From assembly GCF_030732065.1 (NCBI RefSeq), contig NZ_JAVBHX010000002.1, positions 1 through 64,000 on the forward strand: a stretch of DNA of 64,000 nt, given 5' to 3'. Below the pieces are notes generated by a model. That model was not told where the DNA came from. It saw only the letters and a list, made by a program, of their open reading frames with translations, and ran no database searches. Shown here piece by piece: positions 36,808 through 43,465 of the stretch. The stretch comes from Oceanimonas aquatica. GTDB taxonomy: Bacteria; Pseudomonadota; Gammaproteobacteria; Enterobacterales; Aeromonadaceae. Positions within the stretch are counted from its first letter, which is position 1; every line of letters begins with the position of its first letter. Both the position numbers and the translations under genes were made by a program.

Positions 36808-38253
36808 ATGAACACAACATCCTGCGCCGCTTATGCCCAGCGCCCGCTTAGGGTAGGCATTCTGGGAGGCGGCATTGCCGGCGCCACCGTGGCGCTGCGC
36901 CTGACCGACATGGGCATTCACACCCTGCTGCTGGAAAGCAGCACCGGCCTGGTCAACGGCCCGCCCATCTGCCACCTGCACGCGGGGGGCAACCTCTACC
37001 GCGAGATTAGCGACCAGCAGTGCCTGACCCTGCTGCGCCAGTCCATTGCCTCGGTACGGGCCTACCCCCACAGCATTAACCGCCGCCCCACCGTGATTGC
37101 AGTGCCGGTGACCGACGCCGGTGATCCCGAGGCGTTATTGCCCCGGTTGCGCCAGGTGGCGCGGGAATACCAGCTGCTGGTGAACGAAGACCCTGCCAAC
37201 AAAGTGCTGGGCGAGCCAGACGACTACTACCGCTGCTATGAGCGCGAAGAATTTGAAGCGCTGGCAAAGCGGCCACTGCCGGCCCGCGCCGAAAGTCACG
37301 ACGACTGGATGATCCCCCTGGCGCACCAGCTGGATGCGGACAGGCTGAAGTTTCCGCTGATCCTGGTGCAGGAATACGGCTGGAGCCTGTTTCGCATGGC
37401 CGCCACCGCCACCCTGGCGCTGAGCGACTCCCCCCTGTGCGATCTGCGCCTGAACACCCGCGCCACTCACCTGGAGCAGCACGAATGCAGCTGGCTGGTG
37501 CAAAGCGTGGGCCCACGGGGAGAGCGGGTGGATGAAGTGGACTTTCTGGTGAACGCCTGCGGTTTTCGCACCGGGCTGGTGGACGACATGGCCGGCTACC
37601 GCCGCCAGCGGCTGGTGGAATACAAGGCCGCCTACCTGGCCCGCTGGTCCGGTGCCGCCGACTGGCCCGAAGTCATTTTTCACGGCGAGCGCGGCACCCC
37701 CGAAGGCATGGCTCAGCTGACCCCCTACCCCGGCGGCCTGTTTCAGCTGCACGGCATGACCGACGCCATTACCCTGTTCAAGAACGGTCTGGTGGCCAGC
37801 CCCGAGCACAGCGCCCAGCCGCGCCTGCCTGAACCCTATCGCCAGCAGCTGGATCAGGGCTGGAGCCAGGACGACAGCGAGGCCCGCACCCAGCGCGCCA
37901 TTGAACACCTGGCCCGGCTGCTGCCGGACTTTGGCCGTGCCACTCCCGGTGGCAAACCGCTGTTTGGCGCCCAGCAAATACCGGGCAGCGATCCCAAACT
38001 GCGCGCCGCCGATGTGTCCTTTGAAGGCCACCACTACGCCCGGGTGGAAATCGTCAAGGCCAGCTCCGCCCTTACCGCCGCCGACCGCATTGTGGACAAG
38101 CTCACCGAGCTGGGATGGCTCACCAGTACCGGTCCGCTCAGCCCGGTTCTGGCCCTGAGCCAGCAGCAAAGCGCCACCGAGGTGGAAAGCACCGCCATAA
38201 AGCTGGCCGAGGCCCGCGGCTACCCTCGGGAGCTCGCCGAAAACGGCTGGTGA
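36808..38253 (+). CDS. FAD-dependent oxidoreductase (DAO-like)
   Basis: A 481-residue flavoprotein. VGILGGGIAGATVALRLTD near residue 16 is the dinucleotide-binding motif with LLLESS as its second strand; NACGFRTGLVDDMAGYR near 252 is a later conserved flavin-fold segment. No signal peptide is present. The substrate is not evident; the FxxEYGWSLFRMA and HAGGNLYREIS stretches may help place it in a family search. It is downstream of mfd by 93 bases on the same strand and is followed by a palindromic repeat. Confidence 0.7.
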   Translation: MNTTSCAAYAQRPLRVGILGGGIAGATVALRLTDMGIHTLLLESSTGLVNGPPICHLHAGGNLYREISDQQCLTLLRQSIASVRAYPHSINRRPTVIAVPVTDAGDPEALLPRLRQVAREYQLLVNEDPANKVLGEPDDYYRCYEREEFEALAKRPLPARAESHDDWMIPLAHQLDADRLKFPLILVQEYGWSLFRMAATATLALSDSPLCDLRLNTRATHLEQHECSWLVQSVGPRGERVDEVDFLVNACGFRTGLVDDMAGYRRQRLVEYKAAYLARWSGAADWPEVIFHGERGTPEGMAQLTPYPGGLFQLHGMTDAITLFKNGLVASPEHSAQPRLPEPYRQQLDQGWSQDDSEARTQRAIEHLARLLPDFGRATPGGKPLFGAQQIPGSDPKLRAADVSFEGHHYARVEIVKASSALTAADRIVDKLTELGWLTSTGPLSPVLALSQQQSATEVESTAIKLAEARGYPRELAENGW

Positions 38254-38286
38254 GGCTGTAAAGGGGATTGGAGACTCGAAACAGTC

Positions 38287-38311
38287 GTCATGCCGGCCCC
38301 CGAGCCGGCAT
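38287..38311 (+). repeat. GTCATGCCGGC...GCCGGCAT palindrome
   Basis: ATGCCGGC / GCCGGCAT around CCCCGA in the gap after the FAD oxidoreductase. It is related in form to the repeats at 39654 and 47449 and may act as a terminator stem, though no T run follows. Confidence 0.55.
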
Positions 38312-38397
38312 CTGCTCCTCCCCCAAAAAACAAGAGGCCTGTCACAAAATTCTGGTAAATTACGCTCATTGCGACTGACAGCAGCAAAGGAGTATTA

Positions 38398-39642
38398 ATG
38401 CGCAGTCATCCCTTGCGTGAACAGATTATTGCCGAAGTTCATGCCCGCCCGTTTCAGGAGCTGCAGGGCCCCCTGGGCATGCGGCATATTGCCGTTACTT
38501 ACGACGACACCCCCCTCAATGAAGTACGGGAAAGCGTGACGCAACTCAGCAAGATGCTGGAGCTCACCGAGACCATCAGCAAGCCCCGCTTCTGGCAGGG
38601 TAAAAACGAAAGCCTCACCCTGCGCTTTGAAGCCCACCACGAGTTTTATACCCTCACCCTGACTGCGCTCAACACTCTGGAGCTTCCCCAACTGCCAAAA
38701 GCCTGGCTGGACACCGCCCCGGGCAGCTTTCTCTGTGGTGCCGAAATTCTGTTTCGCGATCATCAGGCCGGCGCCGATGAAACCACCTGGCTGGAGCAGC
38801 ACTTTGGTGAGAATCAGGTCAACAGCTCCATGGTGATGTCAAAAGTAGGCCAGATCTGGACCGACTTTTACCCCCGGCAAGACAGCGGCCTGGTGCGGGT
38901 ACTGGTAGAAGACCACGGCCTGCAACTGCGCCAGGCCGGACGACTGCTGCAACGTATTTGCGAAATAGAAACCTACCGCCATGTGGCTCTGCTGGCCCTG
39001 CCGCTGGCCAATGAAGTGGTGCCGGTGATTAACCAGCTGGAAGCCGAGCTGGTGGAGCTCTCCACCCGGGTGGCGTCGGAAGAGCCGTCGGTGCTGCTGC
39101 ATCAGCTGATGGATCTGGCGGAGCGGCTGGAAGCGCTGTCGGCACAAACGTCCAACCGCTTCTCGGCGGCGGACGCCTACTTTGCCTTGGTGAACAAACG
39201 TATTGGCGAACTGCGGGAAACCCGCATAGAAGGCCGCCAGACCGTGGAGCAGTTTATGGACCGCCGGCTGGATCCGGCCACCCGCACCTGCCGTACCGCC
39301 GGCCTGCGCATAGAGCAGCTGTCCCGCCGGCTGGCCCGTACCACTCAGCTGGTTCGCTCTCAGGTGGATCTGTCGGTTGAGCAGCAAAACCGCGACATGC
39401 TCAGCACTCTTAGCAAACGCGCGGGCGAGCAGCTGCGGCTGCAGGCCAAGCTGGAAAGCTTCACCATTATCGTGGTGACCTACTACGCCTTTGACCTGAT
39501 AGACCGCACCCTGCGCAACCTGGTCAATAACGAAGAATACCGCCACCTGCTGGAAGCCGGCTTAAGCCTGTCGGTGCCCTTTATTGCCCTGGTGTTGTGG
39601 CTCTATATTCGCCGGCTGCTGCGCGGCGTGGGTGAAGACTGA
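38398..39642 (+). CDS. DUF3422 membrane protein
   Basis: A 414-residue protein of the DUF3422 family, function unknown. The soluble N-terminal part starts HPLREQIIAEVHARPF, a hallmark of the family. The middle (about 230-345) is a long helical/coiled-coil region. Two transmembrane helices lie near the C-terminus (about 350-370 and 385-408), so the soluble part probably faces the cytoplasm. AAAGGAG before ATG 38398 supports the start. It appears to be monocistronic. Confidence 0.85.
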   Translation: MRSHPLREQIIAEVHARPFQELQGPLGMRHIAVTYDDTPLNEVRESVTQLSKMLELTETISKPRFWQGKNESLTLRFEAHHEFYTLTLTALNTLELPQLPKAWLDTAPGSFLCGAEILFRDHQAGADETTWLEQHFGENQVNSSMVMSKVGQIWTDFYPRQDSGLVRVLVEDHGLQLRQAGRLLQRICEIETYRHVALLALPLANEVVPVINQLEAELVELSTRVASEEPSVLLHQLMDLAERLEALSAQTSNRFSAADAYFALVNKRIGELRETRIEGRQTVEQFMDRRLDPATRTCRTAGLRIEQLSRRLARTTQLVRSQVDLSVEQQNRDMLSTLSKRAGEQLRLQAKLESFTIIVVTYYAFDLIDRTLRNLVNNEEYRHLLEAGLSLSVPFIALVLWLYIRRLLRGVGED

Positions 39643-39653
39643 CCTGTGATCGT

Positions 39654-39705
39654 CATGCCGGCCCTGCGCCGCCCTTTGTCACTCCGGCGAAAGCCGGAGT
39701 CCATT
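39654..39705 (+). repeat. Two joined intergenic palindromic repeats
   Basis: GTCATGCCGGCCCTGCG is followed at 39678-39704 by a GTCACTCCGGCGAAAGCCGGAGTCC unit, a variant of the repeat seen at 21270, 47503 and 53502. The base changes on both arms keep the stem (CTCCGGC / GCCGGAG), which argues that pairing matters. Confidence 0.65.
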
Positions 39706-39772
39706 CAGCAGACAGCGCGAACAACCACCCTCACGGAACTACAATTAACAGTGCAGTGGCAAGGAGGTTGTT

Positions 39773-40051
39773 ATGCCCAAATATGTTATTGAACGGGATG
39801 TGGAAGGCGCCGGCGATCTCAGCGCCGACGACCTCAGAGACATCTCGAAAAAGTCCTGCGATGTGTTGGAAGAGCTGGGCCCCAAAATCCAGTGGGTAGA
39901 AAGCTTTGTAACGCCCAACAAGATCTACTGTGTGTACATCGCCCCCGATGAAGCCCTTATCCGCAAACACGCGGAAATGGGGGGATTCCCCATCACCTCG
40001 ATCAGCGAAGTGGGCAGCGTCATCGACCCCACCACATCAGAAGGCAGTTGA
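39773..40051 (+). CDS. DUF4242 small protein
   Basis: A 92-residue protein of the DUF4242 family (ferredoxin-like fold; an actinobacterial member, SCO4226, binds nickel). MPKYVIERDVEGAG, WVESFVTPNKIYCVYIAP and IRKHAEMGGFPI are typical. The conserved histidine is in KHAEMGGFP (about residue 67). It is cytoplasmic with no signal peptide. AAGGAGG stands just upstream of ATG 39773. A perfect 11-base hairpin follows 15 bases after the stop. Confidence 0.85.
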   Translation: MPKYVIERDVEGAGDLSADDLRDISKKSCDVLEELGPKIQWVESFVTPNKIYCVYIAPDEALIRKHAEMGGFPITSISEVGSVIDPTTSEGS

Positions 40052-40066
40052 GGCAAACCATGCAAA

Positions 40067-40095
40067 GGCGATTCGAATCTCATGTTCGAATCGCC
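40067..40095. terminator. Perfect hairpin downstream of DUF4242 gene
   Basis: GGCGATTCGAA (40067-40077) and TTCGAATCGCC (40085-40095) form an 11-base perfect stem with a 7-base loop. The tract after it (CCTTGCTG) has no T run, so it is either a weak terminator or a repeat/RNA processing element. Confidence 0.55.
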
Positions 40096-40377
40096 CTTGC
40101 TGTCAGTAAAGCTCGACCTGCCCGCTCAAACTGCTCACAAAACCACCACTCAAGCAATTTACATCTCACTTCATCCTTTTTGCAATTGCCCTGCTGACTT
40201 CCAGCGGCCAGAATAGACGCGTTTGAAAACCTTTAGTGCAGGTATGGCGGCCTGAAACGCCGGGGCGGTAGCTTGGAAAAATACCAGCCAGCACAGACCT
40301 GGACGCTGCTGCTTTAGCTGGCAGAGCCCGCGCGGCAGGCTGAATGCGCAGTATTATAATGTTAGGCATACGGGATT
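40096..40377. other. Gene-free stretch ending in an attC-like core site
   Basis: About 280 bases without a credible gene between the DUF4242 hairpin and the next gene. It ends with GTTAGGC at 40361-40367, which matches the integron core site consensus GTTRRRY and sits 10 bases before ATG 40378, where the boundary of a gene cassette would be. GCCAGC...GCTGGC at about 40287-40322 may be part of a decayed hairpin. No matching inverse core was found upstream. Confidence 0.4.
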
Positions 40378-40911
40378 ATGAGTACAGAATTAATAACACA
40401 ACTGATTATTCTGGCCACAGCGGTTGTAGGTTTATATAAAGCAGCAACCTACAAACCTGCCGATGCGGAACATTCTGATTCAAAAGAGCCTGGCCCGCTC
40501 TCCGAGGCACTGGCTGGCCTCATAAGCTTTTTTGGTGTATTCGCATTTATGCTGGCGATGCCGGCATTTATTTGGGCTTTCACATGGATAACTGGAAATA
40601 TTGGGTCTTCAGGCTCAAGAAAGCCAGTTGTTCAATATGAAGTTGCATATAAACGATCAGAAAAGCCAAGCGATATTGAGCTCATGCTAATTGCGGCCTC
40701 TCAAATCCCTAGTGAACATTCTCGTGGTCAAGCACTAGAAATAGTTTCAGAGCGCGCTGTAAGTGAGGGTAACTTTCAAGTTGCTACCGCTGCAGCCTCT
40801 GCAATCCCTAGTGAATATTCGCGCGGCAATCAGCTCAGGGAAATTGTGGATTACCTGAATAATATGCCTGACAAATCAATGCAGCCGTCCGCTAAAGCGT
40901 CGGCTGATTGA
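40378..40911 (+). CDS. Integron-cassette-like membrane protein of unknown function
   Basis: A 177-residue protein with two hydrophobic segments (about 5-22 and 45-72) and a soluble tail. The tail carries two copies of a roughly 30-residue unit, AASQIPSEHSRGQALEIV and AASAIPSEYSRGNQLREIV. The family is not recognised. Its base composition is clearly richer in A and T than its neighbours. The last codons (QPSAKASAD) run through a hairpin that resembles an attC site, as cassette genes often do. No good ribosome site precedes the ATG. The features together suggest acquisition as an integron cassette. Confidence 0.65.
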   Translation: MSTELITQLIILATAVVGLYKAATYKPADAEHSDSKEPGPLSEALAGLISFFGVFAFMLAMPAFIWAFTWITGNIGSSGSRKPVVQYEVAYKRSEKPSDIELMLIAASQIPSEHSRGQALEIVSERAVSEGNFQVATAAASAIPSEYSRGNQLREIVDYLNNMPDKSMQPSAKASAD

Positions 40912-40914
40912 GGC
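40866..40914 (+). other. attC-like recombination site (decayed right side)
   Basis: GCCTGAC (40866-40872) resembles the inverse core (RYYYAAC with one change). Then TCAAT-G-CAGCCG (40876-40887) pairs with CGGCTG-ATTGA (40901-40911), leaving one unpaired G (40881). This is the extrahelical base expected of attC. The right-hand GTTRRRY core is missing: GGC follows directly after ATTGA, as if about 7 bases were deleted. Confidence 0.5.
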
Positions 40915-40950
40915 TTTGCAAGCCACTCACTCAATAAGCAGGAAAAGTAT

Positions 40951-41145
40951 ATGTCTATAGAAAACGAAAAACAGCAGGTCACCGTGGTAGATATCAAAAT
41001 GCCGTTTATGTCGATGGTGATATTTATGGTTAAGTTGGCCATTGCCTCCATTCCCGCCTTTATCATTATCTCTGTCGTCTTTGGGGTGCTGGCGGCAATC
41101 TTTGGCGGCATTTTTCATGGTATGGGTATGATGGGGCGATACTGA
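40951..41145 (+). CDS. Small single-helix membrane protein
   Basis: A 64-residue protein: a polar N-terminus (MSIENEKQQVTVVDIKMP), then one or two closely packed hydrophobic stretches (about 20-56) rich in Ile, Phe and Gly, ending GMGMMGRY. AGGAAAAG precedes ATG 40951 at good spacing. The function is unknown. It lies 39 bases after the cassette-like gene and may or may not belong to the same insertion. Nothing else is visible in the 78 bases up to the next gene. Confidence 0.6.
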   Translation: MSIENEKQQVTVVDIKMPFMSMVIFMVKLAIASIPAFIIISVVFGVLAAIFGGIFHGMGMMGRY

Positions 41146-41223
41146 GATCACCATTATCGGACAGGCTCAGACTTCCGGAAAAACTGGTGTCATTTATAAC
41201 CTGCGTATTAGCCGTCCCTTTGC

Positions 41224-41859
41224 TCACTCTCTCACTTGTGAATGTACCCGTGTCTGATACTCGGGCAGCTGCGCTCTTAATCCCTGAAAGGTGTTGAATG
41301 CACTGGTCACCGAGAGCTGGTTGGTCAACCAGCCGGGTAAGTTACCTCCGGGATCGGCAAAGGCGACATATTCGATATGGGTCAGCCCGTTGGTCAGTTT
41401 TGCCAGTGTCCAGGTGACCTTCACATCTCTAATCCGAATGTAACCGGGTTGCCGTGGGTAGGCATGGAAAGCATCTTCAATGGTCAGCACCAGGGCTCCC
41501 GGTGGTTGTTCAAATCGGGAATAGGTGACCATATCACGGTCCTGTACCGGCCAGGGCGCACGAAAGCGGGTGTAAACGATATTCTCAGTGGGCGAAAGCT
41601 GCTCAAGTACCCGGCTTGAGGAAACGTTATCTACCCAGCTGGGAATATTGGGGCTGTCTTCCAGTAGTGCCATAAAGGCGCCATAACTGGTAGCGACAAA
41701 CATGCGGGCACGGATCTCCACCAGGCCAGCCTGGTGGGGCCGGGTGTAAATGGTAATGCCGTCCTGGCTTTTTGCCATTTCCCAGCGTGGTGAGCTGTCT
41801 GCCATGGCAGAAAAAACCACAAATAAAGAAAGCATCAGTAACCCGCGTGCCAGCATCAT
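41224..41859 (-). CDS. START-domain lipid-binding-like periplasmic protein
   Basis: A 211-residue protein with an N-terminal signal peptide (about 1-20, MLSLFVVFSAMADS). The rest fits the START/SRPBCC fold: WEMAKSQDGITIYTR at the start, then PWPVQDRDMVTYSR, and GLTHIEYVAFADPGGNLPGWL, a characteristic START end section. Such proteins bind hydrophobic ligands; the ligand here is unknown. Two ATGs open the frame, and the first is used. It is a lone gene on the minus strand. Confidence 0.8.
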   Translation of the reverse strand: MMLARGLLMLSLFVVFSAMADSSPRWEMAKSQDGITIYTRPHQAGLVEIRARMFVATSYGAFMALLEDSPNIPSWVDNVSSSRVLEQLSPTENIVYTRFRAPWPVQDRDMVTYSRFEQPPGALVLTIEDAFHAYPRQPGYIRIRDVKVTWTLAKLTNGLTHIEYVAFADPGGNLPGWLTNQLSVTSAFNTFQGLRAQLPEYQTRVHSQVRE

Positions 41860-41978
41860 TGCTCCTTATCACCCGACAGACCGGTAAGCCGGCCTTGTCT
41901 CTGCTTAGCTTAGGGTGAAAACGGGTCACGCACCCGGCATATACAGACAGGCCGAAGCAAATGCCCCGGCCTAAATGG

Positions 41979-42479
41979 TTAGTACGCCCCTTCGCTGTAA
42001 ATCAGCTCGTAGCTGTGGCTGTAGATCTCCACAATATTGCCGAACGGGTCTTCCATATAGATCATGCGGTAGGGCTTTTTACCCGGGTAGTAGTAGCGCG
42101 GTTTGTCCATGCGCGCCTTGCCGCCGGCGGCCACAATGCGCTCGGCCAGGCCTTCCACGTCCGGATCCTGCACACAGAAGTGAAACACCCCTGTTTTCCA
42201 GTATTCAAAGTTGTTGTCGGGGTTTTGCTGCCCCTGAAACTGGAACAGCTCCACGCCAATACGATCACCGGTAGACAGGTGGGCAATGCGGAAGCTGCCC
42301 CAGCCAGCGCCGAACACGTCGGTGCACATTTCGCCAATGGCGCTGTCGTCTTCGGTAATTTCAGTCGGCTTCATGATCAGATACCAGCCCATGACCTGGG
42401 TGTAGAACTCCACCGCCTTGTCGAGATCCGGCACCGAAATGCCAATGTGGGAAAAGTTTCTCGGATATACCTTGCTCAT
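41979..42479 (-). CDS. VOC-superfamily dioxygenase/glyoxalase-like protein
   Basis: A 166-residue protein with a vicinal-oxygen-chelate fold. FSHIGISVPDLDKAVEFYTQ gives the first metal-side histidine, HFCVQDPDVEGLAERI the second half, and YMEDPFGNIVEIYSHS the closing glutamate motif. Metal ligands His, His and Glu appear intact. The substrate is unknown. ATG 42479 is preferred to GTG 42488 because GGTGAG stands five bases before it. It is divergent from a LysR regulator across about 95 AT-rich bases, so LysR control is likely. Confidence 0.82.
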   Translation of the reverse strand: MSKVYPRNFSHIGISVPDLDKAVEFYTQVMGWYLIMKPTEITEDDSAIGEMCTDVFGAGWGSFRIAHLSTGDRIGVELFQFQGQQNPDNNFEYWKTGVFHFCVQDPDVEGLAERIVAAGGKARMDKPRYYYPGKKPYRMIYMEDPFGNIVEIYSHSYELIYSEGAY

Positions 42480-42521
42480 AACACTCACCTTGTTTGTTGG
42501 GGTTGAGGTGAGCTTACGCTC

Positions 42522-42534
42522 ATGATTTAATCAT
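42522..42534. promoter_or_regulatory. Candidate LysR operator
   Basis: ATGATTTAATCAT is a perfect palindrome (ATGAT-N3-ATCAT) in the AT-rich gap between the divergent VOC and LysR genes. A second partial copy (ATTATCAT, 42540-42547) follows. The T-N11-A form fits LysR-type boxes. Confidence 0.45.
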
Positions 42535-42574
42535 TAAAAATTATCATTTTTTATATATATGAGAACTATTTTTG

Positions 42575-43465
42575 ATGATTAATCCGGTCTGGCTGCGCAG
42601 CTTTTGCGCCCTGGTGGAGGTGGGCCATTTCACCCGTACCGCCGAGCGCTTGCACATGACCCAGTCCGGAGTCAGCCAGCATGTGCGCAAGCTGGAAGAT
42701 CATTTTGGCGTGGCACTGCTGGTGCGCCAGGGCAAGGGCTTTACCCTGACCGATGCCGGCGAACGGCTGTTTGCCGAGGCCCGGCAGATTTTACAGTCGT
42801 TGTCGGGTCTGGAGCAGCGGGTGGGCTTTGATGCGCCCTTTGAAGGGCTGGTGCGGGTGATGTCGCCGGGCAGCGTGGGCCTCAAGCTGTATCCGCAACT
42901 GCTGGCCTTGCAGTGCCAGCATGCCGGACTCATCATCAACTATCGCTTTGCCCCCAACGCCAGTGTGGAGCAGGCGGTGGCCGGCAACTCGGTGGAGCTG
43001 GGGCTGATGACCCGGCCCTCCACCCATGAGGCGGTGCAGTGCCGGGCCATTGCGGAAGAGGCGCTGCTGCTGGTGACCCCCGCCACCATGACTGAGCCGG
43101 ACTGGCTTTCTTTGCTGAAGCTGGGCTTTATTGATCATCCGGACGGCAGCCACCACGCCGGCCTGCTGCTGGGTGCCAACTTTGCCGAGTTTGAGCATGT
43201 AAGCCAGTTTGCCTGCACCGGTTTTTCTAATCAGATCGGCCTGATTCTGGCGCCGGTGAGCCTGGGGCTGGGCTTTACCGTGCTGCCGGCCCATGCGGTG
43301 GCGGCCTTTCCTCAGCCGGAACTCATTCGTGCCCATGCCCTGCCCCACCCGATCAGTGAAACCATTTATGCGGCCACCCATCGTCACAAGCCGGTGCCCA
43401 GCCGGGTTAACACCGTGCAGAACGTGGCCGAAACCTCGTTAACTCAACAAAGGAAGCAATCATGA
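42575..43465 (+). CDS. LysR-family transcriptional regulator
   Basis: A 296-residue regulator. The N-terminal winged helix-turn-helix (about 3-62) has FCALVEVGHFTRTAERLHMTQ followed by SGVSQHVRKLE, and the C-terminal inducer-binding domain runs from about 90 to 290. ATG 42575 is used; the frame's TTG directly before it is not needed. The usual LysR arrangement, regulator divergent from its target, makes the VOC gene the likely target. It overlaps the HIT gene by 4 bases, so the two are co-transcribed. Confidence 0.92.
   Translation: MINPVWLRSFCALVEVGHFTRTAERLHMTQSGVSQHVRKLEDHFGVALLVRQGKGFTLTDAGERLFAEARQILQSLSGLEQRVGFDAPFEGLVRVMSPGSVGLKLYPQLLALQCQHAGLIINYRFAPNASVEQAVAGNSVELGLMTRPSTHEAVQCRAIAEEALLLVTPATMTEPDWLSLLKLGFIDHPDGSHHAGLLLGANFAEFEHVSQFACTGFSNQIGLILAPVSLGLGFTVLPAHAVAAFPQPELIRAHALPHPISETIYAATHRHKPVPSRVNTVQNVAETSLTQQRKQS

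Follow-up and report, generated by a model that had tools for sequence, protein, structure and literature searches.

In the integron platforms described to date a Pc promoter lies near attI and most of the array is silent, and the expression of cassettes beyond the first few is an open question, large arrays being held to be mostly silent (both in the sections of PMC11023631 drawn on here). Clusters of cassettes that have no integrase are held to be degraded integrons, according to the part of PMC9024848 used here. In RfaH-dependent operons, a 12-nt ops element in the untranslated leader recruits RfaH, with less pausing and less termination, Rho-dependent termination included, and the targets described in the excerpts of PMC2871177 and PMC6391919 that underlie this account are single operons, such as those for capsule, LPS core, pili or toxins. 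Within the PMC library, none of the matches listed links integrons or gene cassettes with RfaH, ops, JUMPStart or antitermination.

The window analysed here, the whole stretch of 64,000 nucleotides on contig C12 of Oceanimonas aquatica, contains a short region that, judged from its sequence, is probably a single integron gene cassette attached to an attI-like site, itself part of an integron platform devoid of an integrase. Its parts, and the ORF that follows them, are:

40186-40214, forward strand: promoter-like box TTGCCC-17-CAGAAT ahead of the leader, read from the sequence
40228-40277, forward strand: leader with the ops core GGCGGTAGC at 40264-40272, then TTG, from leader alignment and pattern search
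40340-40367, forward strand: attI-like site whose last bases are the left core GTTAGGC (40361-40367) and which differs from the attI motif of the genus at 6 of 25 positions
40378-40911, forward strand: cassette gene for a protein of 177 aa with two hydrophobic helices and two IPSE[HY]SRG repeats
40866-40919, forward strand: attC site with a broken R' core, from covariance model, fold and alignment, the similarity reaching to about 40926
40951-41145, forward strand: hydrophobic ORF of 64 aa, with a counterpart in the same leader-headed locus of relative G013 and a remnant in G003

As its counterpart and remnant in these two relatives suggest, the 64-aa ORF is probably older local cargo and lies outside the cassette.

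The borders of the cassette were found as an earlier note on this DNA had described them. The ATG at 40378 follows the left core after exactly 10 bases, GCCTGAC is present at 40866-40872, and the ORF ends inside a hairpin, with the stop codon at 40909-40911. The gene is indeed AT-rich, the GC content dropping from about 0.60 to 0.45-0.50 across it. We searched for attC with a covariance model of 15 sites from other genomes of the genus, chosen by eye and mostly short ones, with the own genome and G041 left out; for 10 of the 14 base pairs that RNAalifold gives, at least one sequence has both partners changed, and two sites outside the model, the one on contig C18 of the own genome and the one behind the G041 homologue of the cassette gene, reached 40.3 and 27.2 bits. 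In the 64 kb the model gave one match, at 40866-40919, with 18.2 bits and an E value of 0.03. With the filters off, the same site scored 18.3 bits in the range 38000-43000, the runner-up 5.9. Note that the margin is modest, a bare palindrome elsewhere having scored 14.5 bits, and that the weak fit is explained by the broken R' core. The bottom strand of 40866-40926 folds with -16.5 kcal/mol against a mean of -8.3 for shuffled sequences (z -4.2, none of 200 shuffles as good), and an unpaired base, as had been claimed for the hairpin, appears in the stem of this fold. Aligned to the attC of C18, which is not part of the model, the site scores 29, the maximum in 2000 shuffles being 13. The region has the make-up of a gene cassette: a short promoterless ORF, then an attC in which R and L boxes as well as an unpaired base are recognised.

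The right core was reported as lost, and the R' of the window attC is in fact broken. Together with the loss of about 210 bp of the usual spacer between ops and attI this suggests that the cassette is no longer excisable and has become fixed, and the broken core predicts that IntI would neither excise nor insert it. With one attC the window falls short of the two or more that define a CALIN in IntegronFinder 2 by default, while other platforms of the genus do have two or more; nor does it hold a complete integron, as contig C12 carries no intI and the sole full copy of the genome is located on C18.

The IPSE[HY]SRG repeat occurs twice in the cassette protein, as first noticed, and is kept as IPY[DE]PSRG in the homologue from G041. 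The tail MPDKSMQPSAKASAD of the 177-aa protein is encoded by attC itself, and the same holds for the tail NKSIQQTAEAAAD of a 363-aa gene in the integron on C18. An AlphaFold model of the cassette protein, calculated from two sequences with a pLDDT of 70, predicts that the N-terminus forms two long helices; the C-terminal part, which holds both repeats, is helical and modelled with confidence. A Foldseek search of this model against the PDB returned nothing at E<=0.001. The suggestion of a role in defence found no support for this gene: neither PADLOC nor NCBIfam gave a match, and Pfam had none above its curated cut-off. Our guess would be a membrane-anchored accessory protein.

Two other cassettes of the genome do match defence models. 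The first cassette gene on C21 is GIY-YIG-like and matches PADLOC PDC-S11 and PD-T4-3, and the 363-aa gene on C18 matches putAbiC and AbiC. The cassette locus on C21 (L080 7469-10428) is headed by ops, has no integrase and contains four attC sites. Directly behind the C18 array (L011 15970-18723) we observed genes for SIR2 and HerA, a known defence pair, in a stretch that is found as 77% identical DNA on Serratia plasmids.

Among 61 related genomes the cassette gene is present in two, its own and that of G041, which belongs to a different family of the order. Over 394 genomes of the order the count is three, own included, the third being a weak partial match of 30% in G410, at a locus that was read as unrelated and in which no attC was seen by eye. 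The protein had no match in plasmids, in phages or in a first scan of genome contigs, and a phage or plasmid gene was considered as its identity and rejected. The earlier note had asked for the gene in other cassette contexts and for strains without the insert, and both were found: in the single case of G041 a 58%-identical homologue is directly followed by an intact attC, and the gene is absent from all 22 other genomes of the same genus, with a nearly empty site in G002, where the counterpart of window positions 40129-40192 runs directly into that of 41224. Other relatives carry different genes at this locus. In G019 the same leader is followed by two attI-like boxes and an ORF of 92 aa in place of the window gene, with a weak attC-like end that at 13.8 bits is at noise level. 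Beside the locus, a SCO4226-like gene (window 39672-40128) represents a separate indel, present with its flanks in G008 and missing from G002.

Upstream of the cassette, the elements of the window recur at other cassette loci. Among the 35 ops leaders linked to cassettes, 18 contain a promoter-like box of the same kind, as do 5 of 65 further ops sites and 0.2% of shuffled leaders. In all 35 aligned leaders, which had been selected by their ops core, GGCGGTAGC is invariant, and so is the TG separated from it by one base. The Rfam model JUMPstart (RF01707) scores 17.7 bits in the window, under its gathering score of 35, and gave no match at E<=1 in L080, L081, L113 or L116. The attI of the own C18 integron and the site in G019 both read TATTAAAATGTTA. 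Among the platforms the window is the weakest example, with an attC of 18.2 bits, 6 mismatches in its attI-like site, TTG rather than GTG after ops and a short spacer, the attI-like site lying 76 bp from ops. Taken alone its assignment as a platform is arguable; we count it as one because promoter-like box, ops, attI-like core, cassette and attC follow each other in this order and because of the related locus in G019. The notion of a solitary chromosomal cassette without integrase therefore holds in part: the cassette is chromosomal and no integrase gene is adjacent, but a full intI is encoded on C18, and the left end is an attI-like site behind a promoter-like box and ops, which places the cassette on an integrase-less platform and not at a random site.

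The pattern GGCGGTAGCNTG occurs 10 times in the own genome, its reversed control twice. The cassette loci of C1, C12 (the window), C18 and C21 account for four of these sites; by eye, three of the remaining six precede polysaccharide- or lipoprotein-like genes and three are chance-like within genes. A search of the whole genome for attC at E<=1 yielded four sites, two on C21 and one each on C18 and C1, the weaker one of the window lying outside this list. The four attC loci found in the genome, that of the window included, all carry the ops leader. Across the genus, 109 copies of GGCGGTAGCGTG were counted, spread over 22 of 23 genomes, against 22 of the reversed pattern. For 37 of the 109 exact ops sites in the 23 genomes an attC lies downstream on the ops strand. 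They comprise 26 of 91 regions, which were at most 5 kb long and in some cases shortened by the end of a contig, and in which 51 of 51 attC matches are on the ops strand. The remainder are 11 of the other 18 sites, which belong to larger loci; of the seven sites without attC there, four are intI loci located at the end of a contig. Nine random 5-kb regions contained no attC (0/9). The 72 ops sites without attC include other operons, chance occurrences and regions cut by contig ends. A second class of ops leader, of the GGGGGAA-GGCC type, is found once each in eight genomes of the genus (L224, L235, L243, L246, L254, L262, L278 and L285), with no attC downstream. In G008, near-identical ops-containing stretches that are not cassette-linked lie 3.3 kb apart (L211 146 and 3416) and again on another contig (L212, L213).

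An intI gene or its remnant was detected at 10 of the 37 ops-linked attC loci, the other 27 having no intI match. We scanned 34 loci, two with a broken intI included, from ops to the first attC, or else over 700 bp, with three attI motifs of the genus, and found an attI-like site in 28, against a mean of 0.35 for sequences shuffled in blocks of two bases, a rough control. The distance from ops to attI is 282-302 bp in 14 of the 28 and 282-338 bp in 20. When 13 of the spacers, with attI trimmed, were compared with the region between intI and attI of eight intI-bearing integrons, 12 matched at E<=1e-3 and L225 at 0.013. A spacer profile matches this region in all seven intI-bearing loci given to it, and on C18 the match begins at L011 12765, a little upstream of the start codon of an intI; the window, L080 and L081 gave no match. 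By this homology the platforms look like integrons minus the intI gene. They occupy many chromosomal places, as 32 leaders fall into 26 groups by their upstream flank. A search of viral contigs with the exact pattern of the platform, and one of plasmids with a single example of it, gave no match.

The own genome encodes a full integron integrase on C18 (405.6 bits, cut-off 265) with attI and array, and beyond its 3' end lies a like pair of promoter box and ops. In the genus, 17 of 23 genomes have intI matches at E<=1e-40, 15 of them over the cut-off. At 16 of the 17 intI loci an ops core follows the end of the intI match after 5-179 bp, on the strand of the array, so that it stands just past the 3' end of intI and reads through the gene into the array; the integron of G017 is the exception, without ops signal. 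The 12 intI sequences compared are 48-96% identical to the own one, and the association of ops with intI thus extends over several integron lineages. Of 76 integron loci of other organisms, all with a flank of 100 bp or more, two have the exact 8-base ops antisense within 300 bp, those of Halopseudomonas yangmingensis and Halomonas almeriensis (L113, L116), at 35-36 bp past the intI match and in both cases continuing as GGCGGTAGCGTG. The same loci gave none on the same strand and three on the 5' side (either strand), with 0.34 expected per strand, and allowing two mismatches in the 12-mer within 150 bp yielded three against one. With exact matches in only 2 of 76 foreign loci, the ops leader is not a general feature of integrons. 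The gene for RfaH is present in 23 of 23 genomes of the genus, in 22 over the cut-off, the own protein scoring 158.9 bits with a cut-off of 144.5.

From these data we infer the following course of events. The platform would be an integron that cleanly lacks the intI gene, and IntI acting in trans, from elsewhere in the genome, would have placed the cassette there. Transcription would start in the leader, RfaH would board RNA polymerase at ops and suppress pausing and Rho termination, and the AT-rich cassettes would in this way be expressed. In intI-bearing integrons the same transcript would cross intI antisense before it reaches the array. Note that G002 has four leader loci with attC yet no intI match, so that at present cassettes cannot be supplied in trans in that genome. 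The wider proposal, a dispersed family of integrase-less integrons in one gammaproteobacterial genus, composed of promoter, ops, conserved spacer and attI, fed in trans and using antitermination to express whole arrays, defence genes included, has in our estimate about an even chance of being right.

The most serious competing view, though an unlikely one, is that of an ordinary CALIN, a decayed integron that has lost intI and retains the ops leader as a passive relic. Such decay is seen in G001 and G019 (L229, L264), where the intI behind ops is broken, and the parts of the window itself are degraded. However, many platforms share the spacing of 282-302 bp (14/28) and lack intI cleanly, and the ops core is kept while its flanks diverge; shared spacing, clean absence of intI and a kept core suggest an upkeep of the platforms. 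As to the function of the leader, it might alternatively supply antisense RNA against intI rather than serve cassette expression, since in intI-bearing integrons it reads straight into the antisense strand of that gene. Its retention at the 27 of 37 ops-linked attC loci without an intI match makes this improbable.

Insertion at a secondary genomic site (attG), outside any integron platform, is a published route (Loot et al. 2024; PMC12444791) and would be compatible with the imperfect attI-like match of the window. Nevertheless we regard it as distinctly unlikely and have rejected it as the main reading, as promoter-like box, ops and attI-like core precede the cassette in the same order as elsewhere in the set of cassette loci, and a fuller platform exists at the same locus in G019. 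Finally, the motifs are short and the model score is modest, so that a chance hairpin with chance core motifs around an ordinary accessory gene might be invoked in place of a cassette. This is scarcely credible and was rejected: the only attC match in 64 kb sits exactly at the end of the gene, the homologue is followed by an intact attC, and the site of the window resembles the own attC of C18.

If the reading of a cassette on an expressed, integrase-less platform is true, the question of array expression would for one lineage be answered by an antitermination signal that the integron itself contains, and integrase-less cassette loci would be kept, expressed platforms rather than debris. The combination of ops and attI would also provide a sequence handle for single cassettes that searches for attC only will miss. 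Compared with known systems, the locus resembles a CALIN in having a cassette without a nearby integrase, but here an ops leader and an attI-like site precede the cassettes at a set spacing, and the window has a single attC. With cassettes inserted at attG it shares the location outside a full integron, whereas its left end is attI-like and part of a recurring platform. Like a sedentary chromosomal integron it has attI and cassettes in the orientation from intI to array, with intI-bearing examples in the genus, but the ops leader is placed beyond intI, and intI is missing from many platforms. With the operons controlled by RfaH the locus shares rfaH in the genome and an ops core, here in a putative untranslated leader; in contrast to them, ops here heads interchangeable cassette arrays.
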